IMG/VR virus record: IMGVR_UViG_3300009159_006930
Location: 1 to 25,600 of that record
DNA from: a virus
Length of the DNA stretch: 25,600 nucleotides
Strand: one strand, 5' to 3'
The notes under the pieces are model-generated. The model was not told the DNA's origin. It saw only the letters and a program-made list of their open reading frames with translations, and did not search any database. How positions within the stretch are numbered: position 1 is the stretch's first letter; each line of letters opens with the position of its first letter. A program made the translations under genes and the position numbers. Below, in pieces: positions 28 through 13,764 of the stretch.

Positions 28-1557
28 ATGCTCACAGTATTAATTCTGGCCGCAGGTTATGGCCGCCGCATGGGACCTTTCAGTCGAATGGTCAACAAAG
101 GACTTATTCCCTACGATAACAAGCCATTGATTAGTCATATCATGGAGAAGTTCGACCCGGAAACTAAATTTGTCATTGCCTGTGGCCATATGGGACAACA
201 AGTCAAAGACTATGTGGGAGCCGTACACACAGATAAACAAGTGGTGTATGTGGATATACCCGACTACGCAGAAGGCAGTACTGGGCCAGCCACGACTATT
301 CAATTGTGTGCAGAACATATTAACGGAGCGTTCATATGGCTCAGTTGCGATACATTGTTTGACTTTGATTATAAAAACAAATTAGATCACAACTGGATCG
401 GTGTGCATCCAGTCAACAACGATATTGCACAAGACTACTGTTGGGTCCGACGTGACGGGGAAACTATCACAGAAATTAAAAATAAAGAACCCAGTAATCA
501 AGCCGTGGATGCGTTCATTGGTCTAATGTATTGCAAGGACATGCAGTATGTGGAAAACTTGCGGGCTGCGGGCGCTAAAGAAGCATATCAAGGGCTACTG
601 AGTAATCTAGAACTGCGGGCACATACTGTGCGTGAATGGAAAGATTTTGGCACTTATGACAAGTGGGTTGAACTGAGTGCAGGACTCAAAGAAGTCAGCT
701 TTCCCAAGCCCAACGAATTGTTTTACCATGACAACGGTAAAATTATCAAGTTTACCACAGACCAGACTTTGGCCGAAAAGAAAGTTGATCGTGCTGGATT
801 GAATCCCACAGTAATGCCCACAGGTATTAAACGCAGCGGACAGTTTTTGGTATATAACTTTGTCGAAGGCGATATCATTTACAACCAACTAACTCCTGAA
901 TTATTGGACAATCTGTTGGAGTGGGCCAACAAGGATCTATGGAAACGCAAGTGGTTTCCCAACACCGAAGACATCTGCAGGAATTTCTATTTCGACAAGA
1001 CCATGGATCGACTGGCCCAGTTCCGTGTCAAGTACAGCGACTGGAGCGAGCCCAGCACTGTTAATGGTGTGGCAGTTAAAAGCATCGACGAATATTTGAA
1101 GATGATAGATTGGGACAGCCTTTGCAGCAACACCCAATGGGCATTTATACACGGCGACTTTCAATTTGAAAATATAATTTACAATTCAATAACTGACAAG
1201 TTTACCTGTATTGATTGGCGCACAGATTTTGGCGGCGACAGCTACGGCGATTTGTACTACGATTTGGCTAAAATGGCGGGCGGCATGATACTGGACTATC
1301 AAGCAGTCAAAGCAAACAAGTTAGAATACTCGGAGTCAAATGATAATGTTACGCTGAACGATTGCGCCGTTCCGGACGGGCTGGTTTATGTAAGTCAGCT
1401 GGCAGAATTTTGTATAGCATCAGGTTTGGACTGGACAAAGGTTCAGCTGCTATGGTGCATTATATATCTTAATATGAGTCCGTTACACGATGCACCATTT
1501 GACAAATATCTGTTTGCATTGGCGCAGCTACAATTTTCAAGGTATTTCCAAAAATGA
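28..1557 (+). CDS. Fused nucleotidyltransferase and APH/choline-kinase-like phosphotransferase
   Basis: A 509-residue two-domain protein. Residues 1 to about 225 look like a sugar-phosphate or choline-phosphate nucleotidyltransferase: the N-terminus carries the LAAGYGRRM glycine-rich NTP-binding loop, followed by K24 and a P-x-x-NKPLI segment, and WLSCDTLFDFD fits the metal-binding Asp region. Residues 230-509 resemble the aminoglycoside phosphotransferase/choline kinase fold: the Brenner motif HGDFQFEN starts near residue 375 and the metal-binding IDW lies near 394, so both catalytic Asp are present. The family architecture recalls LicA/LicC-type or HddA/HddC-type enzymes that phosphorylate and then nucleotide-activate a sugar or alcohol; which substrate is used is not visible. 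The gene ends in an ATGA overlap with the AroE-like gene and opens the cassette at 28-4830. Confidence 0.8.
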   Translation: MLTVLILAAGYGRRMGPFSRMVNKGLIPYDNKPLISHIMEKFDPETKFVIACGHMGQQVKDYVGAVHTDKQVVYVDIPDYAEGSTGPATTIQLCAEHINGAFIWLSCDTLFDFDYKNKLDHNWIGVHPVNNDIAQDYCWVRRDGETITEIKNKEPSNQAVDAFIGLMYCKDMQYVENLRAAGAKEAYQGLLSNLELRAHTVREWKDFGTYDKWVELSAGLKEVSFPKPNELFYHDNGKIIKFTTDQTLAEKKVDRAGLNPTVMPTGIKRSGQFLVYNFVEGDIIYNQLTPELLDNLLEWANKDLWKRKWFPNTEDICRNFYFDKTMDRLAQFRVKYSDWSEPSTVNGVAVKSIDEYLKMIDWDSLCSNTQWAFIHGDFQFENIIYNSITDKFTCIDWRTDFGGDSYGDLYYDLAKMAGGMILDYQAVKANKLEYSESNDNVTLNDCAVPDGLVYVSQLAEFCIASGLDWTKVQLLWCIIYLNMSPLHDAPFDKYLFALAQLQFSRYFQK

Positions 1558-2309
1558 ATCTGCAAAGTGCAATCGATTGGCAATCCAAGAGCAAACTGTT
1601 TGTAAGTCTTGCGGCCAAGCCCGGTAAGACTGGCGAGACTTTTTATAAAACACTGTTCGATCATCACAGCATTGACGCTGATTATGTGGCCTGCGTTTGC
1701 ACAGACTTGGCACAAGACATGCAGTTGATTCGTCGTCATTGCGCAGGTGCCAGCATTACTATGCCGTTTAAGCGCACTGCGGCACATTTTGTGGATACCA
1801 CAGTATCTCCAGTCGCTAGTGCAATCACACCCATCAACACTGTGGTCAACCGAGATGGTATTTTAACTGCTTATAACTGCGATTATCTAGGATTAGCAGA
1901 TGTGGCAGCACAGAATTTCAAAGGTCTGCATGTGGTTATACTAGGAGATGGGGCCATGTCAGAAAACGCATATTTGTTGTGCAAAGATGCTAAAATAACA
2001 TCTGTCAGCAGACGCAAAGGCACATGGCATTTGCGCAATACTTTATGCAATGTGCTGATTAATACTACCAGTATTGGCATGGGCACCGATGAAAGTCCCG
2101 TGGATTATATCAACGCTGAAACAATAATAGATTGCGTTATTGGCAATACCAAGTTGATTAACTCTGCAAAATCCATGGGAGCAAAAGTAATTTCAGGTGC
2201 CGAAATATATAAAGCACAATTCAAACATCAATTTAAGTGCTACACCAATCAAGAACCAGACTGCGCAGTAGTTGATGCTGTGGCCCAACAATTATTCGAT
2301 TATGTTTAA
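1554..2309 (+). CDS. AroE-like (shikimate/quinate dehydrogenase family) oxidoreductase
   Basis: A 251-residue protein with the main landmarks of shikimate dehydrogenases in order. SITMPFK at about residues 67-73 matches the family's N-V-T-x-P-x-K with the catalytic Lys. NTVVNRDG followed by YNCDYLG near 109 matches the substrate-binding Asn and catalytic Asp. VVILGDGAMSENA near 126-138 is a degenerate version of the G-A-G-G-A nucleotide-binding loop, and NTTSIGMG near 170 matches N-x-T-x-x-G-M. Length is slightly below the usual 270. It is placed between a sugar nucleotidyltransferase-kinase and a KdsC-like phosphatase, so I infer that it oxidises or reduces a sugar or cyclitol-like polyol and not shikimate itself. 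Overlaps the previous gene by 4 bases (ATGA) and the next by 8. Confidence 0.75.
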   Translation: MNLQSAIDWQSKSKLFVSLAAKPGKTGETFYKTLFDHHSIDADYVACVCTDLAQDMQLIRRHCAGASITMPFKRTAAHFVDTTVSPVASAITPINTVVNRDGILTAYNCDYLGLADVAAQNFKGLHVVILGDGAMSENAYLLCKDAKITSVSRRKGTWHLRNTLCNVLINTTSIGMGTDESPVDYINAETIIDCVIGNTKLINSAKSMGAKVISGAEIYKAQFKHQFKCYTNQEPDCAVVDAVAQQLFDYV

Positions 2310-2772
2310 GTATTTCATTTCAGACATAGACGGCTGTTTAAATGACGGCAGAATTTATTGGGACGCCCAGGGGCAAAAGCCTTTTAAAGCATTTGGTAAC
2401 TATGATCACGATGGTGTCAAGTTATTACGAGATCATGTCAAACTAATTTTTATCAGCGCAGATCGACATGGGTGGGACATATTGCAATCTCGAGTTGCAG
2501 ACCATATGAAATGCGAATTGCATTATGTGCCCGAAGCTGATCGATACAACTTCGTGGCGCAGTACGGATTCAACGAAGTTGCTTATATGGGAGATGGTAT
2601 ATTTGACGCCAAGATTATTCGTGCAGCCAAATTGGGAATCGCACCAGCACAGGCAAGAATTGAAGCCAAACAGGCAGCAGATTACATTACACCCAGCAAC
2701 GGCGGCGAAGGAGCATATCTGGATGCTTGCGTACATATTATGAAACAAATGGAAATACCTTATGAATTTTAA
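2302..2772 (+). CDS. KdsC-like HAD-family sugar phosphatase
   Basis: A 156-residue protein of the class C0 HAD phosphatases that includes KdsC (KDO-8-phosphate phosphatase) and the C-terminal domain of bacterial CMP-acylneuraminate synthases. Motif I is DIDGCLND (D8 nucleophile, D10 acid/base), motif II Ser lies in FISADRHG, and motif IV is YMGDGIFD near residues 95-102. TPSNGGEGAYLDAC near the C-terminus matches the glycine-rich tail typical of KdsC. The ATG at 2302 is preferred over upstream in-frame TTG 2272 or ATG 2275 because it puts the first Asp at the usual distance from the N-terminus and gives an 8-base overlap. Its likely substrate is an acidic keto-sugar phosphate, by family; the exact one is unknown. 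Confidence 0.85.
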   Translation: MFKYFISDIDGCLNDGRIYWDAQGQKPFKAFGNYDHDGVKLLRDHVKLIFISADRHGWDILQSRVADHMKCELHYVPEADRYNFVAQYGFNEVAYMGDGIFDAKIIRAAKLGIAPAQARIEAKQAADYITPSNGGEGAYLDACVHIMKQMEIPYEF

Positions 2773-3739
2773 TCTAGGTTTTGGGCCAATGAGCTCGATA
2801 GTCAACGATGTTTTGGCACGATACGCCAAAGACCGACAACGACCAGTAATGTTTATTGCCAGCCGTAATCAAATTGATGCCGACAGTGGTTATGTAATGC
2901 GAACCAAACAATTTGCAGAGCAGATATATCCTTTACGCAGTGACCACCTAATGCTGTGCAGAGATCACTGTGGGCCATATTTTCTAGATATCGAAAAAAG
3001 TCTTGGCATACGAGCAGCAGTTGAAGCCACCAAGCGTACAATTTCTGCAGACATTGAAAACGGATTTGACCTTATACACATAGATACCAGTCGCTGCGAC
3101 AATCCTTACCAAGTTGCAGATGAACTGTTTAATTTTAGCTTGAACTTAAATCCCAATATTAAATTTGAATTCGGCACTGAAGAAAATGTCGGAGTTGCTG
3201 CTGGTGTAAAGAAGTATCAAGACGATGTTAGATTTGCCAGTCAATTTCCCAATATGCAATTTGTGGTAGCACAAACAGGCAGCTTGGTCATGGAAGACAG
3301 GCAAGTGGGCAGTTTTGATGTGCCCATGGTTAAAAAATTAGCCAAGTTTGCTGAGTCGGCTGGCATTAAGTTAAAAGAACACAATGCAGACTATTTGACT
3401 GCCGCACAGGTTGCACTGCGTAAACAAGCAGGAGTTCATGCTTGCAATATTGCACCACAGCTGGGAGTTATACAAACTAAAACTGTACTGGCGTTGGCTG
3501 ATCAGTATGATGTGGACACTGGCTATTTTAAACAGCGTGTGTTGGACAGCGGAAAATGGCGCAAGTGGATCATTGACGGTGACGACTCTGTTAAGATTGC
3601 AGTGGCTGGTCATTATTGTTTCACTGAGCAAGAATATCATACGCTGGAAGACAAGATAAACTCACACTGTGATGTGGCCAAGGAAATAGAGCAGGCAATA
3701 CACTCCTGCTTAGATTTATACTACGAGAATTTACTATGA
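2762..3739 (+). CDS. GatZ/KbaZ-like tagatose-bisphosphate aldolase-type protein
   Basis: A 325-residue protein that resembles GatZ/KbaZ, the TIM-barrel partner subunit of class II tagatose-1,6-bisphosphate aldolase. Matching landmarks are FIASRNQIDADSGY (residues about 31-44, family ANRNQVD..GGY), MLCRDHCGPYF (family LGGDHLGPN.W), HIDTSRCDNP near 114-123 (family HLDCSM.CADDP) and FEFGTEENVGVAAG near 137-150 (family YVIGTEVP.PGG). It is shorter than GatZ (about 420). By position it could make or cleave a keto-sugar phosphate in the same pathway as the KdsC-like phosphatase. No catalytic GatY-type partner is seen in the window. Overlaps the previous gene by 11 bases and the next by 4. Confidence 0.7.
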   Translation: MNFNLGFGPMSSIVNDVLARYAKDRQRPVMFIASRNQIDADSGYVMRTKQFAEQIYPLRSDHLMLCRDHCGPYFLDIEKSLGIRAAVEATKRTISADIENGFDLIHIDTSRCDNPYQVADELFNFSLNLNPNIKFEFGTEENVGVAAGVKKYQDDVRFASQFPNMQFVVAQTGSLVMEDRQVGSFDVPMVKKLAKFAESAGIKLKEHNADYLTAAQVALRKQAGVHACNIAPQLGVIQTKTVLALADQYDVDTGYFKQRVLDSGKWRKWIIDGDDSVKIAVAGHYCFTEQEYHTLEDKINSHCDVAKEIEQAIHSCLDLYYENLL

Positions 3740-5141: not shown

Positions 5142-5428
5142 ACAATGTCCTTTCAGGGATAATTGACTGGATCCGAGATGATTATCGCACTCATCCTTTT
5201 CGCTTTGTTGTCGAGCTACTTGCTTGGGGCATTAGTATCGGGTGTAGTATCACAATGGCACTTACGGTACCCAATCCTCCACTTATTACTCTGTATCCTG
5301 TGTGGATTCTCGGTTGTAGCATGTACGCTTGGGCTGCTTATACTCGCAAGAGCTTTGGTATGATTGCCAACTACTTACTGCTGGTTACAATTGATTCTGT
5401 TGGTTTATTTAGGATGCTGTATATTTAA
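5138..5428 (+). CDS. Small integral membrane protein
   Basis: A 96-residue protein with a short basic/acidic N-terminal segment (SGIIDWIRDDYRTHPFRF) and three hydrophobic helices at about residues 22-43, 48-67 and 76-95. It resembles small conserved membrane proteins of T4-like phages of aquatic bacteria; a distant link to the PnuC fold is possible but not shown. The start is a TTG overlapping the previous stop (TTGA), the only in-frame start that keeps the conserved-looking N-terminus; the nearby ATG at 5145 is in another frame and stops after five codons. Function unknown; it may act on the host inner membrane. Confidence 0.7.
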   Translation: MNNVLSGIIDWIRDDYRTHPFRFVVELLAWGISIGCSITMALTVPNPPLITLYPVWILGCSMYAWAAYTRKSFGMIANYLLLVTIDSVGLFRMLYI

Positions 5429-6486
5429 TGGCTAATATTATACCAATAAAAGCATCATTCCCAAAAAAGCAACTACAAGATCTTTATTGTTTAAGTCCAT
5501 TTATCAACATTCATATTGAGGTAAATGGATCAGTGTCGCTATGTGGCTGTCCGGGCTGGGGAGATCTATCAATTGGTAATATTTTTGAAACACCACTGAT
5601 TGATTTACTGTCTTCCCCGAAGGCCGTGGCAATACGAGAAAGTGTTATTACTGGCACATATGAGTTTTGCAATGAAAAACAATGTGCTGTTCTAATCAAC
5701 AATGAGCTCAATACCAAAGAGACTGTGCCAGACAATGTTAGTTTGCTACTACAAGACAGTACAAAGTTTGATTTGCCATATGAAATAAAAATAAATGGAG
5801 ATAAAACTTGCAATTTAAGTTGTCCAAGTTGTAGAACTTCGATATATAAATCTAGCGAAGATGAAATTGCAAATCAGCAAAAATTGGGACTGATATTATT
5901 CAATAACATTTTTGATAAACCATCAGATAAGTTAATAATGGTGGGCACATCTGGTTCGGGCGAAGTGTTTGCCAGCCCTATGCTGCTCAATTTGCTTGCT
6001 AATATTACATTAGATAAATTTCCAAATTTTAAATTAGAGCTGCATACTAACGGATTACTGAGTCAAAAATTTTGGCACAAGATACAACATTTAGAACCAG
6101 CCATAGAAAAAGTAGTGGTATCAATTGATGCGGCATCAAAAGAAACTTACGAAACCGTGAGAAGGGGCGGCAAGTGGGAAGATCTTCGATCTTCGCTGGA
6201 TTTTTTAAAAACCATGAAGCGTAAAATTAAATTTGAATTTAATGGACGAATGATATTTCAAAAAGAAAATTATAAAGATGCTGTGGATTTTTATCATTTT
6301 TGTAAGTCATACAATATAGATCGAGTAGAATATTCTAGGCTTATTAGCTGGAACACATGGAATAAACTTGAGTTTCAACAGCAAGATGTGTTACACTTAA
6401 TGCATGATGAAAGACCGATGGCATTGAAACAGATACAACAACTACAACTCTTACCCGGTGTGTGGTTCGAAGGGAACTTTGAATGA
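5428..6486 (+). CDS. Radical SAM protein with N-terminal SPASM-like cysteine domain (copy 1)
   Basis: A 352-residue iron-sulfur enzyme. The radical SAM motif C-x3-C-x2-C is at C128, C132, C135, followed by a GSGE segment and an HTNG motif typical of the SAM-binding barrel, and VSIDAASKETYETVRRGG as in SPASM-family enzymes. Unusually the auxiliary-cluster-like region comes first: C21, C39, C41, C81 and C86 surround NGSVSLCGC and SIGNIFETPLIDLLSS, phrases normally found in the C-terminal SPASM domain. A paralog with the same cysteine spacing sits just after the polymerase gene. Substrate unknown; peptide or sugar modification are both possible for the family. The TAATG start overlaps the previous stop by one base; the end overlaps the polymerase gene (ATGA). 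Visibly AT-rich. Confidence 0.85.
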   Translation: MANIIPIKASFPKKQLQDLYCLSPFINIHIEVNGSVSLCGCPGWGDLSIGNIFETPLIDLLSSPKAVAIRESVITGTYEFCNEKQCAVLINNELNTKETVPDNVSLLLQDSTKFDLPYEIKINGDKTCNLSCPSCRTSIYKSSEDEIANQQKLGLILFNNIFDKPSDKLIMVGTSGSGEVFASPMLLNLLANITLDKFPNFKLELHTNGLLSQKFWHKIQHLEPAIEKVVVSIDAASKETYETVRRGGKWEDLRSSLDFLKTMKRKIKFEFNGRMIFQKENYKDAVDFYHFCKSYNIDRVEYSRLISWNTWNKLEFQQQDVLHLMHDERPMALKQIQQLQLLPGVWFEGNFE

Positions 6487-9155
6487 GCTATGTAGACGCA
6501 CTTTTCGATCGATCCAAAGATCGTATTCATGTGGTTGAACGAGTTGATGGCGAACGGGTATACAGAGAATATCCGCCCAACTATGTATTTTATCATGACG
6601 ACCCCAAGGGCAAACATAGAACTATTTACGGAACTCCGGTAACTCGATTTACCACAAGAAACGGCAAAGAGTTTCAAAAAGAAATTAGAATGCATGGCAA
6701 CACTCGCCTATGGGAGAGTGATGTCAAACCAGTATTCCGCTGTCTTGAAGAAAACTATCTGGGTGCCGAACCACCCAAACTTAACATTGCATTTTTCGAC
6801 ATTGAAGTAGACTTTGATCCCCTGCGTGGATTTAGTCCGGTGGAAGATCCATTCAACAAGATCACTGCAATCTCTGTGTACATGAGTTGGTTGGAAAAGA
6901 TGGTTACTTTGGCAATTCCTCCCAAATCAATGAGTTGGGAAACTGCGGAAGAAATTGCAACACGATACAGCGACTGTTTTATTTTCGAACGAGAAGAAGA
7001 CCTGCTGGATACCTTTCTAAACTTGATTGACGACGCAGACATTCTAAGTGGCTGGAACAGCGAAGGTTATGATATTCCCTACACTGTGGGTCGTATTACT
7101 CGTGTGCTGAGTAAAGATGACACACGACGATTGTGCCTATGGGGCCAACATCCCAAGCCGCGCGAGTACGAACGCTTTGGTGCAACCAAAGGCACCTACG
7201 ACTTAATTGGTCGAGTGCATATGGACTATATGCAATTGTATCGCAAGTATACCTATGAAGAACGACATAGCTATAGCCTAGATGCCATTGGCGAATACGA
7301 ATTAGATGAACGCAAGACTGCTTATGAAGGCACTCTTGATCAGTTGTATAACAAAGACTTTGACAAGTTTTTGAAATATAACAGACAGGATACTCACTTG
7401 TTGGCAAAGATGGATAAGAAACTCCGCTTTCTAGATTTAGCCAACACCATTGCTCACGACAACACGGTGTTGTTACAGACCACAATGGGTGCAGTTGCAA
7501 CCACGGAGCAGGCAATTATCAATGAAGCACACAGTCAAGGATTGGTCGTACCTAATAGAAAAGGTCGAGACTCAGAAGAAGATACTCAGGCAGCAGGTGC
7601 CTATGTTGCTTATCCCAAAATCGGCGTCCATAAAGACATCGGGGCAATCGATATCAACTCGCTCTATCCCAGTGCTATTCAAGCCCTCAACATGGGCCCA
7701 GAAACAATCATAGGACAGTTGCGGCCAGTGATGACTGATAAGTTTATTGCTGACAAGATTGCTGCCGGCAGCAGCTTTGCGGCTGCCTGGGAGGGGTTGT
7801 TTGGCAGCTTTGAGTATGAAGCAGTTATGCGTGGAGATGCAGGTGTTGAAATTACCATCGACTGGGAAGCAGATGGAACCAGCGATGTAATCAGTGCCGC
7901 AGATATCTGGCGTATTATCTTTGACAGCAATAAGCCATGGACATTGAGTGCCAATGGTACTATCTTTACTCATGAAAAGAAAGGTATCATTCCAGGACTG
8001 TTGGCCCGCTGGTATGCAGAGCGTAAAGAAATGCAGGCCAAACTCAAAGAGATTCAAGCTACTGGTAATACCGGCGAAGCTGAGTATTGGGACAAGCGAC
8101 AGTTGGTTAAGAAGATTAATCTAAACAGCTTGTATGGTGCTATTCTTAATCCTGGTTGCAGATTTTATGACAATCGTATTGGGCAGAGTACCACATTAAC
8201 TGGGCGAGCCATTGCCAAGCACATGGACAGTTTTGTCAATGAATGCATATTTGGCAAATATGATCATGTGGGCGAAAGTATTATCTATGGTGATACTGAC
8301 TCAGTGTACTTTAGTGCATGGCCTGCCATCAAGGCAGATGTAGAAGCAGGTCGTATGGAATGGAACAATGATATCTGTATTCAACTGTACGACAACATCA
8401 GCGATAAAGTTAACGAAAGTTTCCCGGGTTTCATGGAGAAGGCATTTCATAGTCCCAGGGCCATGGGTTCGGTCATCAGAGGCGGTCGAGAGTTGGTGGC
8501 CAGTCAAGGTCTGTTTATCAAGAAAAAACGCTATGCAGTTCTTATTATCGACAAAGAAGGCAAGCGATTGGACACAGGCGGCCGGCCAGGAAAAGTAAAG
8601 GCCATGGGGTTGGATCTTAAACGCAGCGACACTCCCAAGGTAGTGCAAGACTTCTTGAGCGAGATCCTTGTTGATGTGTTAACCGGTGCTGAACGACTCA
8701 GCGTGATTGACAAAGTTCGTGAATTTAAATTGGCATTTCAAAGTAGACCAGCTTGGGAGAAAGGCACACCCAAGCGTGTAAATAATTTGACCAAGTATAC
8801 TGCGGCTGAAAAAGATCAAGGCAAAGCCAATATGCCAGGACATGTGCGAGCGGCCATGAACTGGAATAGTCTGCGCCGCATGCACAGCGACAACTACAGT
8901 CTACAAATTGTGGATGGTATGAAAACGGTGGTGTGTAAGTTACGAGACAATCCATTGGGATTTACCAGCGTGGGTTATCCCACAGACGAAACACATATTC
9001 CGCAATGGTTTAAAGATCTGCCATTCGACGATAATTTGATGGAAGCTGGCATTGTTGATCAAAAGGTAGAAAACTTGTTGGGTGTATTGGAGTGGAAAAT
9101 CTCCGAGAATACTGACATCAACAGTACTTTTGACACACTGTTTAGTTTTGAGTAA
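6483..9155 (+). CDS. 43: Family B DNA polymerase (T4 gp43-like)
   Basis: An 890-residue replicative polymerase, close to the 898 residues of T4 gp43. The 3'-5' exonuclease motifs are intact: Exo I FFDIEVDF (D106, E108), Exo II GWNSEGYDIPY near 190, Exo III YNRQDTHLLAKMD near 305. The polymerase motifs follow in order: motif A DINSLYPSAI near 390, motif B KKINLNSLYGAI near 543, motif C YGDTDSVYF near 602. Nothing suggests an intein or intron. It should replicate the phage genome with the clamp encoded at 11275. Starts in an ATGA overlap with the radical SAM gene, in the transcript from the promoter at 4827. Confidence 0.97.
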   Translation: MSYVDALFDRSKDRIHVVERVDGERVYREYPPNYVFYHDDPKGKHRTIYGTPVTRFTTRNGKEFQKEIRMHGNTRLWESDVKPVFRCLEENYLGAEPPKLNIAFFDIEVDFDPLRGFSPVEDPFNKITAISVYMSWLEKMVTLAIPPKSMSWETAEEIATRYSDCFIFEREEDLLDTFLNLIDDADILSGWNSEGYDIPYTVGRITRVLSKDDTRRLCLWGQHPKPREYERFGATKGTYDLIGRVHMDYMQLYRKYTYEERHSYSLDAIGEYELDERKTAYEGTLDQLYNKDFDKFLKYNRQDTHLLAKMDKKLRFLDLANTIAHDNTVLLQTTMGAVATTEQAIINEAHSQGLVVPNRKGRDSEEDTQAAGAYVAYPKIGVHKDIGAIDINSLYPSAIQALNMGPETIIGQLRPVMTDKFIADKIAAGSSFAAAWEGLFGSFEYEAVMRGDAGVEITIDWEADGTSDVISAADIWRIIFDSNKPWTLSANGTIFTHEKKGIIPGLLARWYAERKEMQAKLKEIQATGNTGEAEYWDKRQLVKKINLNSLYGAILNPGCRFYDNRIGQSTTLTGRAIAKHMDSFVNECIFGKYDHVGESIIYGDTDSVYFSAWPAIKADVEAGRMEWNNDICIQLYDNISDKVNESFPGFMEKAFHSPRAMGSVIRGGRELVASQGLFIKKKRYAVLIIDKEGKRLDTGGRPGKVKAMGLDLKRSDTPKVVQDFLSEILVDVLTGAERLSVIDKVREFKLAFQSRPAWEKGTPKRVNNLTKYTAAEKDQGKANMPGHVRAAMNWNSLRRMHSDNYSLQIVDGMKTVVCKLRDNPLGFTSVGYPTDETHIPQWFKDLPFDDNLMEAGIVDQKVENLLGVLEWKISENTDINSTFDTLFSFE

Positions 9156-9261
9156 AATAATCACCTTGGTCAATGTCAACAATGCTGCTTATTCTAATAG
9201 GCGGCCGTTGACCAGCGACGATGTGGCCTCGGATCATAGTTGGACTTTTGTTCAACGGAAT

Positions 9262-10281
9262 ATGAATTTTGAAAAAGACCTTAAATTAAAAGGCAGATAT
9301 TGTTATCATCCGTTTAACACTATTACCATAGACAGCTCAGGAAATGTGTTTCCCTGCATATGTCAAGCATGGCTACCAATCAGTTTAGGAAAGATTTGGG
9401 ATTTTGAAAGTCTAGATGACATTGTTCGTACTTCGCGAGCCAGAGAGATACAAGCCAGTATCTTAGACGGCAGTTATCGATATTGCGACGATAATACCTG
9501 CGGTTTACTACAAACAAATGATCTGCAAGGGCACATCAACCACAAGCCCGATTCAATTAATTGGATTAATTTTGCAATCGATCCCAGTTGCAATTTAACT
9601 TGCCCCAGTTGCAGAAAAGATTTTATTTTTATCAATCAAGGTCCCGAATATGAACAAAGGATACGCATTGTTGACCACGCAGTAAAATTAATTGAGCAAC
9701 ATGATCAATGGATTAAATTTAGTTTGAGCAGTGATGGCGATCCTTTTGCCAGTTTAATCTATAGAGATTTACTTTCCAAATTAAATGTAACCGGTAAGCC
9801 AGTAGAAATTGAAATTATTACCAATGGCATATTGGCCAAAGCGCACTGGCACAAAATGTCAGGTGTACACCACAATATTATAAGATTCAAAGTTAGTTTT
9901 GATGCAGGATCTGAAGAGGTATATAACACCATAAGACGCGGCGGCGATTGGAATAAGTTATTGGATAGCTGCGAATTTATATCCAAGTGGAAACAAAAAA
10001 ACTATAGTAAAATGTCATTGACTGCAAATTTTGTGGTACAGACCGGAAACTATCGGGACATGGCCAACTATGTAGATTTATGCGATCAACTTGGATTTGA
10101 TGAAATTAATTTTCAATCTATTAATGATTGGGGCACATTTGTTGACTTCAAAAGTCATGCAGTTTGGCAATCTTCTCACCCGGAACATGAGGAATTTTTA
10201 AAACAGTTGCATCATCCAAGTCTAAATAATAGTAAAGTAAACTTGACTAACTTAAAAGATATAAAAAATGCGACTCAGTGA
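9262..10281 (+). CDS. Radical SAM protein with N-terminal SPASM-like cysteine domain (copy 2)
   Basis: A 339-residue paralog of the protein at 5428. The radical SAM cysteines are C110, C114, C117 (CNLTCPSC). The N-terminal cysteines C14, C32, C34, C75, C80 reproduce the spacing of the first copy, around GNVFPCIC and LGKIWDFESLDDI. VSFDAGSEEVYNTIRRGG also matches the paralog. The start is chosen at ATG 9262 because C14 then lies at about the same distance from the N-terminus as in the paralog; an in-frame TTG at 9166 would add 32 residues and fill most of the 106-base gap after the polymerase, which otherwise holds nothing I recognise. Overlaps the methyltransferase gene by 14 bases, suggesting that the two act together. 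Confidence 0.8.
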   Translation: MNFEKDLKLKGRYCYHPFNTITIDSSGNVFPCICQAWLPISLGKIWDFESLDDIVRTSRAREIQASILDGSYRYCDDNTCGLLQTNDLQGHINHKPDSINWINFAIDPSCNLTCPSCRKDFIFINQGPEYEQRIRIVDHAVKLIEQHDQWIKFSLSSDGDPFASLIYRDLLSKLNVTGKPVEIEIITNGILAKAHWHKMSGVHHNIIRFKVSFDAGSEEVYNTIRRGGDWNKLLDSCEFISKWKQKNYSKMSLTANFVVQTGNYRDMANYVDLCDQLGFDEINFQSINDWGTFVDFKSHAVWQSSHPEHEEFLKQLHHPSLNNSKVNLTNLKDIKNATQ

Positions 10282-11227
10282 TCTAGTAAGACTAAGAAAT
10301 AATTTTGAAAAATTTAACGCAGTTCAGGCCAAACTAGAATTGGATATACTAGAAGGGCACATGAGCCAGCAGTTAAATCTGCCCTTGCATTCGGACTACA
10401 GCGATAATGTTCTAAGTTTGATCGGCTATTTGGCCAATTCAAATCAACAGATCATGGAAGTCGAACGCAAAATACCCGGGCTAGTAACTCAAATTGACCA
10501 AGAAATAAAAGAAATAACAGACGATTATCTTTCGCGTGGCTATGAGATAAATGGGTATTACGGGTCTAACCGTACTGATGTGACCACTGAACGAGACGGA
10601 AGAACGATGCACATCAGTGATGAAACTAGAAGCGAAATCATTGTCAGACTCCGTGGTTATACAGATTGGCATTATCCTTGTTTAGAAATTGGCCCGGGTG
10701 ACGGTGTGTGGACCGAACACCTTGTGGCAGGCGATCCGCTTTATATCATTGATATTCATCAAGAATTTTTAGATTCGACTCTGTCAAAATTTAACGGCAT
10801 TTATAGAAATAGAGTCCGCCCGTATCTAGCAGACGAAACTCATAGTAATTTACACGGCTCCATGGACATGCTGCCCAAGAATCAATTTGGATTTATATTC
10901 TCATGGAATGTGTTTAATTATTTTCCCTTGACTGAAACTAGAAATATGTTGACACAGTCCATGGAACTCTTACGGCCCGGTGGTACCATGATGTTCAGTT
11001 ATAATAACTGCGAAGTACCGCAGTGCGCAGAATATGTGGAACAGGGATTCAGAAGTTGGATGCCCCGAAGTTTGTTAGTAGAAACTTCTAAGTCTCTTGG
11101 GTTTGAAATAATTGCCACTAGAGCAATCGAAGAAACAGTTCATTGGATTGAAATACGCAAGCCCGGCGAACTTAAAACGGTAAAAGCACATCAGGTATTA
11201 GGTAAGATAGTTACCATTAACACTTGA
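10268..11227 (+). CDS. Class I SAM-dependent methyltransferase with N-terminal coiled coil
   Basis: A 319-residue protein. Residues about 1-90 are helical and charged and probably form a coiled coil. The catalytic domain begins with CLEIGPGDGVWTEHL near 137-151, the SAM-binding motif I, then YIIDIHQEF (motif II acidic residue), an FIFSWNVFNYF motif IV region and LRPGGTMMFSYNN (post-motif). The acceptor cannot be told; small-molecule or sugar methylation is common for this type. It is translationally coupled to the radical SAM gene before it (14-base overlap), and its stop codon is part of the promoter of the clamp gene. Confidence 0.85.
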   Translation: MRLSDLVRLRNNFEKFNAVQAKLELDILEGHMSQQLNLPLHSDYSDNVLSLIGYLANSNQQIMEVERKIPGLVTQIDQEIKEITDDYLSRGYEINGYYGSNRTDVTTERDGRTMHISDETRSEIIVRLRGYTDWHYPCLEIGPGDGVWTEHLVAGDPLYIIDIHQEFLDSTLSKFNGIYRNRVRPYLADETHSNLHGSMDMLPKNQFGFIFSWNVFNYFPLTETRNMLTQSMELLRPGGTMMFSYNNCEVPQCAEYVEQGFRSWMPRSLLVETSKSLGFEIIATRAIEETVHWIEIRKPGELKTVKAHQVLGKIVTINT

Positions 11228-12198: not shown

Positions 12199-13764
12199 AT
12201 GGCAACCTACGACGATTTAACCAGTAAACAAAAAGACTATGCAGTCTTTTTGCCTGCCCTCAGCAGTTTTTATAGCCGAGATGTCAGTAAGCAACGACTG
12301 GATCCCAACTATATCGACCCTGCTCGAGTGCCCAGTCAATTTGAAAACGGCATCGAAGGTATCAATTGGTTGAACAAAGAAGAAGGTTACTTTACTTACA
12401 AATGGAGTTTGTACAGTGCGGGACACGCTGATATCGACATCAATAAACCGCCGGGCCGTGATGATATGGTGCGTAATCGAGATCGCGTCAACACTTTTAT
12501 TTTGGGCGACAGTGGCGGTTTCCAAATTGGCAAAGGCGTTTGGGAAGGCGACTGGAAAGATCCTAACTGCCCCAAGGCCAGTAAGAAGCGCAGGCAAGTA
12601 CTGGAATGGATGGATGCCTATATGGATCGCGGCATGATCCTTGATATTCCGGCGTGGGTTGCTCGTAGCCCAGCTGGTCAAAAGGCCACTGGTATCAGCA
12701 CTTACATTGAAGCAGTACAAGGCACTTATATCAACAACGATTACTTCATGGCCAATCGTAATGGTAATTGCAAGTTTCTAAATGTGCTGCAAGGCGAGAA
12801 TCACGGTGAAGCAGATGACTGGTATGATCGCATGAAAAAGTATTGCGATCCCCGGCAGTATAGTCAGCCGTTTGAAGGTTGGGCCATGGGTGGTCAGAAT
12901 ATGTGTGACATTCATTTGGTGTTACGCAGATTAGTTGCATTGAGATTTGACGGACTGTTAGAGCCAGGTCTACACGACTGGATGCACTTTTTGGGCACCA
13001 GTAAACTAGAATGGGCCACTCTACTGACTGATGTTCAACGAGCGATTCGTAAGTATCATAATGAAAACTTTACTGTCAGCTTTGACTGCGCCAGCCCATT
13101 TTTGGCCACTGCCAACGGACAAATTTACTATGATGTGGTAACTCCGGATCGTGGCAAGTGGAGCTACCAAATGCAGGCCAGCGTGGACGATAAAAAGTAT
13201 TCGTTGGACCAAAGGCAATTCAGAGATGCCGTGCTAACTGACGGAGTATTTGATACCTTTATGGAAAGTCCTATCAGCGAACGATTGAAGATCAAAGATG
13301 TTTGTATTTACAAGCCCGGTGATTTGAATAAGATCGGCAAAGAAGGTCGCACTTCATGGGACAGCTTCAGCTATACTTTACAAATGGGACACAATGTTTG
13401 GACTCACTTACACGCAGTACAAGAAGCCAATAGACAGTATGATTCGGGCATGTATCCAGGCATGCTGGTATCTGGTTCAGCTGATAAGAAAACCGTGCGT
13501 ATGTATGATCGAGCATACTTTAGAGACATTGTGGACGATATCTTTGCCACCAGCGACAGAGGCAAAGCCGAAGCATTAATCGAGCATTACAGCAAATATT
13601 GGATGAGCATTGTGGGCACCCGAGGTGCAACTGGTAAGAAAACATTGAACAGCGGTACCATGTTCAATTCATTGTTTGAGAATTCCGAACCAGAATTACC
13701 CGCCGTCGACGACAGCGGACTAGATCAATCTGCATTAGACCAATTAGAAGTCATAGAAGATTGA
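12199..13764 (+). CDS. dpdA: DpdA-like DNA 7-deazaguanine transglycosylase (TGT fold)
   Basis: A 521-residue protein with the active-site plan of tRNA-guanine transglycosylases. GDSGGFQIG gives the base-recognition Asp D104 (TGT DSGGFQ); ILDIP has D149; NVLQGE near 195-200 matches the QGG loop; GWAMGG near 227-232 matches G-G-L-x-x-G; HFLGTSKLEWATLL near 263-276 matches the YLMGVGxPxDLL helix; VSFDCASP supplies the likely nucleophile D296 (TGT FDCVxPTR). The C-terminal CxCxxC...H zinc site of tRNA enzymes is missing and replaced by a 200-residue phage-type extension. This is what is known for DpdA proteins, which exchange guanine in DNA for a 7-deazaguanine. FolE, QueD and QueE in the same window supply the precursor pathway. 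Downstream of the clamp gene, one base after the small coiled-coil gene. Confidence 0.88.
   Translation: MATYDDLTSKQKDYAVFLPALSSFYSRDVSKQRLDPNYIDPARVPSQFENGIEGINWLNKEEGYFTYKWSLYSAGHADIDINKPPGRDDMVRNRDRVNTFILGDSGGFQIGKGVWEGDWKDPNCPKASKKRRQVLEWMDAYMDRGMILDIPAWVARSPAGQKATGISTYIEAVQGTYINNDYFMANRNGNCKFLNVLQGENHGEADDWYDRMKKYCDPRQYSQPFEGWAMGGQNMCDIHLVLRRLVALRFDGLLEPGLHDWMHFLGTSKLEWATLLTDVQRAIRKYHNENFTVSFDCASPFLATANGQIYYDVVTPDRGKWSYQMQASVDDKKYSLDQRQFRDAVLTDGVFDTFMESPISERLKIKDVCIYKPGDLNKIGKEGRTSWDSFSYTLQMGHNVWTHLHAVQEANRQYDSGMYPGMLVSGSADKKTVRMYDRAYFRDIVDDIFATSDRGKAEALIEHYSKYWMSIVGTRGATGKKTLNSGTMFNSLFENSEPELPAVDDSGLDQSALDQLEVIED

Follow-up and report, generated by a model that had tools for sequence, protein, structure and literature searches.

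What do two radical SAM proteins do on either side of a phage DNA polymerase gene, and on what do they act? The question is raised by a 25,600-base virus record, which derives from a large environmental virus of bacteria and is referred to in full as the window. The two proteins (rSAM1 and rSAM2) had been described in the first-pass annotation as flanking gene 43, and the coordinates of the three genes agree with this arrangement. A methyltransferase gene (MT) overlaps the end of the rSAM2 gene. The features under consideration are listed below.

5428-6486, + strand: rSAM1, radical SAM protein of 352 aa with an N-terminal SPASM/twitch-like domain (relatives in L001, 98%, and L002, 90%).
5488-5685, + strand: twitch-like domain of rSAM1, C21 to C86 (Pfam SPASM 32.3 bits; genome scan 34.9 bits).
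5809-5832, + strand: CxxxCxxC of rSAM1, C128-C135, predicted SAM-cluster ligands, invariant in alignment A2.
6483-9155, + strand: family B DNA polymerase (gene 43), 890 aa, of the jumbo T4-like phage type (PHROG 262, E 8e-193).
9148-10281, + strand: rSAM2, 377 aa from a conserved TTG (AlphaFold2 model, pLDDT 93.2, pTM 0.88).
9301-9501, + strand: twitch-like domain of rSAM2, C52 to C118 (Pfam SPASM; nearest solved sequence the BtrN C-terminal twitch, E 0.014).
9589-9612, + strand: CxxxCxxC of rSAM2, C148-C155, invariant in 68 relatives.
10268-11227, + strand: MT, class I SAM-dependent methyltransferase with an N-terminal helical region (Pfam Methyltransf_25/23).

Every gene in the window lies on the same strand with overlapping ends, and from this layout a common transcript for both rSAM genes and the polymerase is plausible. 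The TTG at 9148 overlaps the polymerase stop and is kept in most close relatives of rSAM2, with ATG in others. The best cultured relatives of the polymerase are those of the jumbo T4-like phages Phosso and Atu_ph07 (45-50% identity).

The two radical SAM proteins are about 29-30% identical and share exactly the five-cysteine pattern reported at first pass. In rSAM1, C21-x17-C39-x-C41-x39-C81-x4-C86 is followed by C128xxxC132xxC135, and in rSAM2, C52-x17-C70-x-C72-x40-C113-x4-C118 is followed by C148xxxC152xxC155. In both proteins the second element is CxxxCxxC, which opens the barrel and by which the radical SAM superfamily is recognized. The claim that a SPASM-like domain precedes the barrel was borne out by Pfam, for which SPASM is matched above its cut-off (21.5 bits) at residues 21-86 of rSAM1 and at residues 55-117 of rSAM2 (29.6 bits, numbering from 9139). 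The Radical_SAM family follows in each case, with 36.0 bits in rSAM2 and 28.9 bits, just below the cut-off of 29.5, in rSAM1. A conventional SPASM domain after the barrel, named in advance as the finding that would speak against this placement, was matched by the profile search in neither protein. The 68 aligned relatives (29-95% identity) all retain the five N-terminal cysteines, the motif glycine, and CxxxCxxC. The half-motif CX9-15GX4C is found in rSAM2 as an invariant C52-x12-G65-x4-C70, and CxC becomes CC in more distant relatives. When the N-terminal domains were excised, 37 of 38 members matched Pfam SPASM, with no other Pfam family among the matches. The second-cluster motif of a full SPASM domain (CX2CX5CX3C) is absent on reading the sequences, in which only five N-terminal cysteines are conserved. 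Both proteins are under purifying selection, with dN/dS values of about 0.23 for rSAM1 and 0.09 for rSAM2.

When a profile of the N-terminal domain was compared with all solved structures, the top match, albeit weak, was the C-terminal twitch domain of BtrN (2-deoxy-scyllo-inosamine dehydrogenase, PDB ID: 4m7t), with the first cysteine pair aligned. A whole-length profile likewise matches BtrN (E 2e-4), and the barrel aligns with those of ordinary radical SAM enzymes. Because the N-terminal domain is nearest to a C-terminal twitch while the barrel is ordinary, the domain order is, as judged from the profiles, reversed, with the twitch-like domain first and the barrel second. BtrN also has a single twitch domain but, unlike rSAM1 and rSAM2, carries it after the barrel, and the overall similarity is weak. 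The proposal that the proteins are circularly permuted thus holds for the reversed order but goes too far in invoking permutation. The order is already cataloged in the NCBIfam model NF033640 (N_Twi_rSAM), which likewise describes a twitch-like domain N-terminal to the barrel. rSAM1 and rSAM2 align to positions 3-319 and 4-355 of its 398 positions, and their scores (59.6 and 53.4 bits) fall well short of the 170-bit cut-off, whereas true members elsewhere reach 258-332 bits. From a match that spans most of the model at scores far below its cut-off, we infer that rSAM1 and rSAM2 are a sister group of the N-twitch subfamily. The twitch-like domain has CxC in rSAM1 and rSAM2 and CC in many relatives. 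Scores for W_rSAM_matur (TIGR04317) are 62.5 and 54.4 bits against a cut-off of 380. In the literature searched, no paper treating NF033640 or an "N-terminal SPASM" was found, nor was a characterized radical SAM enzyme with an auxiliary-cluster domain ahead of the barrel.

Although the two genes are diverged copies on either side of gene 43, as had been noted, they do not behave as a functional couplet. rSAM1 is known from three contigs only (the window, L001, and L002). In the near-identical L003 nothing but about 9 bases occupies its slot, and other contigs have different inserts there. At 35%, the GC content of rSAM1 is lower than that of the window (41%). rSAM1 is a lineage-specific insert of recent origin, an enzyme of the same family as rSAM2 that probably acts on a different substrate. 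rSAM2, in turn, separates the polymerase from MT in 25 of the 41 contigs that remain distinct once loci of the same contig are removed. In the other 16 it is absent from this position, and MT starts 0-36 bases after the polymerase. rSAM2 is lineage-stable yet optional, and the occurrence of the two genes as a pair is partly accidental.

The likely partner of rSAM2 is not rSAM1 but the downstream MT. In ten loci (L021-L028, L031, and L033), rSAM2 and MT form a single open frame of about 690 residues, 692 in L031, with the Pfam order SPASM, Radical_SAM, methyltransferase. Together with L029, a fragment at a contig end, the fused proteins make up one clade with support of 100/99. This in-frame fusion is the strongest clue that rSAM2 and MT probably share a substrate. 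It is new, in that no earlier description was found, and it suggests a two-step modifying enzyme of a kind not yet described, for which it offers a definite partner to test as well as one protein with which to look for the product. The predicted structure of the fusion has a pTM of 0.59, and a structure search with MT returned generic class I methyltransferases that give no hint of the substrate. It could be argued that the adjacency and the fusion reflect only gene order and coupled translation, and that rSAM2 works on its own as an auxiliary metabolic enzyme. The 16 contigs in which MT directly follows the polymerase without rSAM2 indicate that MT is independent of rSAM2, a phage in which about 20 kb separate rSAM2 from MT (L007) fits this account as well, and the fusion is apparently a single event in the tree. 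However, both domains of the fused frame are under purifying selection (dN/dS 0.12) in ten loci that differ in sequence, and we consider this account rather unlikely.

The explanation that we tentatively prefer is that both proteins are radical SAM enzymes with a lone twitch-like domain before the barrel, and that rSAM2 and MT act one after the other on a common small molecule, which is most likely a sugar or glycan. SAM would be cleaved at a [4Fe-4S] cluster bound by CxxxCxxC, and the resulting 5′-deoxyadenosyl radical would abstract a hydrogen from the substrate. A putative auxiliary cluster on the N-terminal cysteines may accept an electron or hold the substrate, by analogy with proposals made for BtrN and MoaA. 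rSAM2 would then carry out an oxidation or rearrangement and MT a methylation, in either order; the shared substrate would most likely be a small compound from the sugar or glycan metabolism of the phage. A small molecule is suggested because the solved folds nearest to the barrel of the rSAM2 model are those of BlsE, viperin, DesII, and NifB (Z 14.8-17.2), which are small-molecule or nucleotide enzymes; this likeness is confined to the barrel alignment, at 11-20% sequence identity. MoaA is also among the neighbors. Viral proteins that align over the full length exist in BFVD, including an uncultured Caudovirales protein (TM 0.75) and a KVP40 protein (TM 0.52). A sugar or glycan is suggested because BtrN, the nearest solved sequence, is the dehydrogenase of a sugar-like aminocyclitol, and it is favored because members of the wider family sit in glycan gene settings. 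Four radical SAM genes of the cultured Vibrio phage K566 lie among GT8/GT4 glycosyltransferases, close to a gene annotated as pagP, and glycosyltransferases neighbor wider-family genes in Sinorhizobium and roseobacters. Within three genes of wider-family members are found epimerases, a sulfotransferase, a carbamoyltransferase, a glycosyltransferase, and several methyltransferases, with few at six or more genes; this enrichment is small and comes from a non-independent sample. Compared by eye, the presence of rSAM2 shows no correlation with that of the GFO and ADH sugar genes.

A genomic island in a Pseudobdellovibrio MAG, another of these glycan settings, has N-twitch enzymes alongside a nucleotidyltransferase-kinase fusion and a GatZ-like gene. 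A contig of a Pseudobdellovibrio MAG (L189/L190) carries about nine radical SAM genes, mostly of the N-twitch type, plus SGNH-like genes. Positions 28-3739 of the window encode a nucleotidyltransferase-APH kinase fusion and AroE-like, KdsC-like, and GatZ/KbaZ-like proteins, a cassette that is widespread in viral contigs and is partly common to the Pseudobdellovibrio island. That one bacterial island suggested a link between N-twitch enzymes and the GatZ/nucleotidyltransferase cassette, which the viral contigs did not bear out: an N-twitch-type enzyme lies within 10 kb in only 6 of 78 and 17 of 74 loci and is usually far off.

In the main rival to a sugar or glycan substrate, rSAM2 and MT would act on a nucleotide or a base of DNA, for example a 7-deazaguanine, made or inserted beside the replisome, and hypermodify it. 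The neighbors of rSAM2 itself are replication genes, and the order polymerase, (rSAM2), MT, clamp-like, TGT-like is conserved across contigs. The window carries FolE (18878) and a 6-PTP synthase/QueD-type gene (24566), and the nucleotide enzymes viperin and MoaA are among the fold neighbors. The TGT-like protein (12199-13764) has DSGGFQ and DCASPF, which resemble motifs of tRNA-guanine transglycosylase/DpdA. However, it has no Pfam, PHROG, or PDB profile match, and its relatives in PA5oct-like jumbo phages are annotated as hypothetical. Adjacency in a replication cluster, moreover, does not imply a shared pathway, and relatives of rSAM2 in other phages and in bacteria are often near glycan genes rather than polymerases. 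We regard base or nucleotide hypermodification as unlikely, and less likely still is the specific form in which rSAM2-MT would be a bifunctional enzyme beside the replisome that gives a nucleotide or base in the phage's own DNA a new modification, made by radical chemistry and then methylated.

Maturation of a peptide (RiPP or protein) by a SPASM-type enzyme appears improbable. Many characterized SPASM enzymes do have peptide substrates (PMC9012708), but the NCBIfam peptide-maturase models all score far under their cut-offs for the window proteins. A survey of relatives for linked peptide or sugar genes, suggested in the first-pass annotation, returned glycan genes in the wider family; directly beside rSAM2, where the neighbors are the polymerase and MT, there is no conserved small peptide gene. 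One distant clade does have a small ORF immediately upstream of the enzymes (L045, L054, L056, L058, L063, L065, L072, L073, L078, L080, and L083); this ORF is conserved, about 55-107 aa long, and lysine/arginine-rich in L080. A viperin-like synthesis of nucleotide analogs is highly improbable: the barrel does resemble viperin, but the matches are limited to it and leave the N-terminal twitch domain outside, and the prokaryotic viperin model NF038283 scores only 28 bits against a cut-off of 180.

The view that radical SAM/SPASM enzymes are rare in phages did not survive the survey, in which at least 262 relatives were counted in viral contigs and 180 in genomes of bacteria and archaea, these last sharing about 28-37% identity with rSAM2. 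Environmental phages and many bacteria are rich in radical SAM enzymes with a putative auxiliary-cluster domain before the barrel. Among 50,697 cultured-phage records, rSAM1, rSAM2, and MT all lacked a match, and with a relaxed E value rSAM2 returned weak matches only. Profile matches numbered from 1 to 8 per phage in the 18 records searched, and one locus (L034) has seven consecutive radical SAM-cluster genes. Published accounts also describe as many as 12 radical SAM genes in a phage genome (PMC5332604, PMC2853527) and pelagimyophages that vary in radical SAM cassettes (PMC7029224). As in Campylobacter phages CP220/CPt10 and marine T4-like genomes, several such genes may occur in one phage, with modular gain and loss; the available portions of these papers (PMC2853527; PMC5332604; PMC7029224) do not discuss domain order or mention a methyltransferase fusion. 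Finally, two further gene fusions were observed. An 845-residue protein in L081 (8534-11071) has two CxxxCxxC motifs and is apparently a fusion of two radical SAM enzymes, and in L053 (14407-15240) a cold-shock domain is fused to a 2OG-Fe(II) oxygenase near radical SAM genes.
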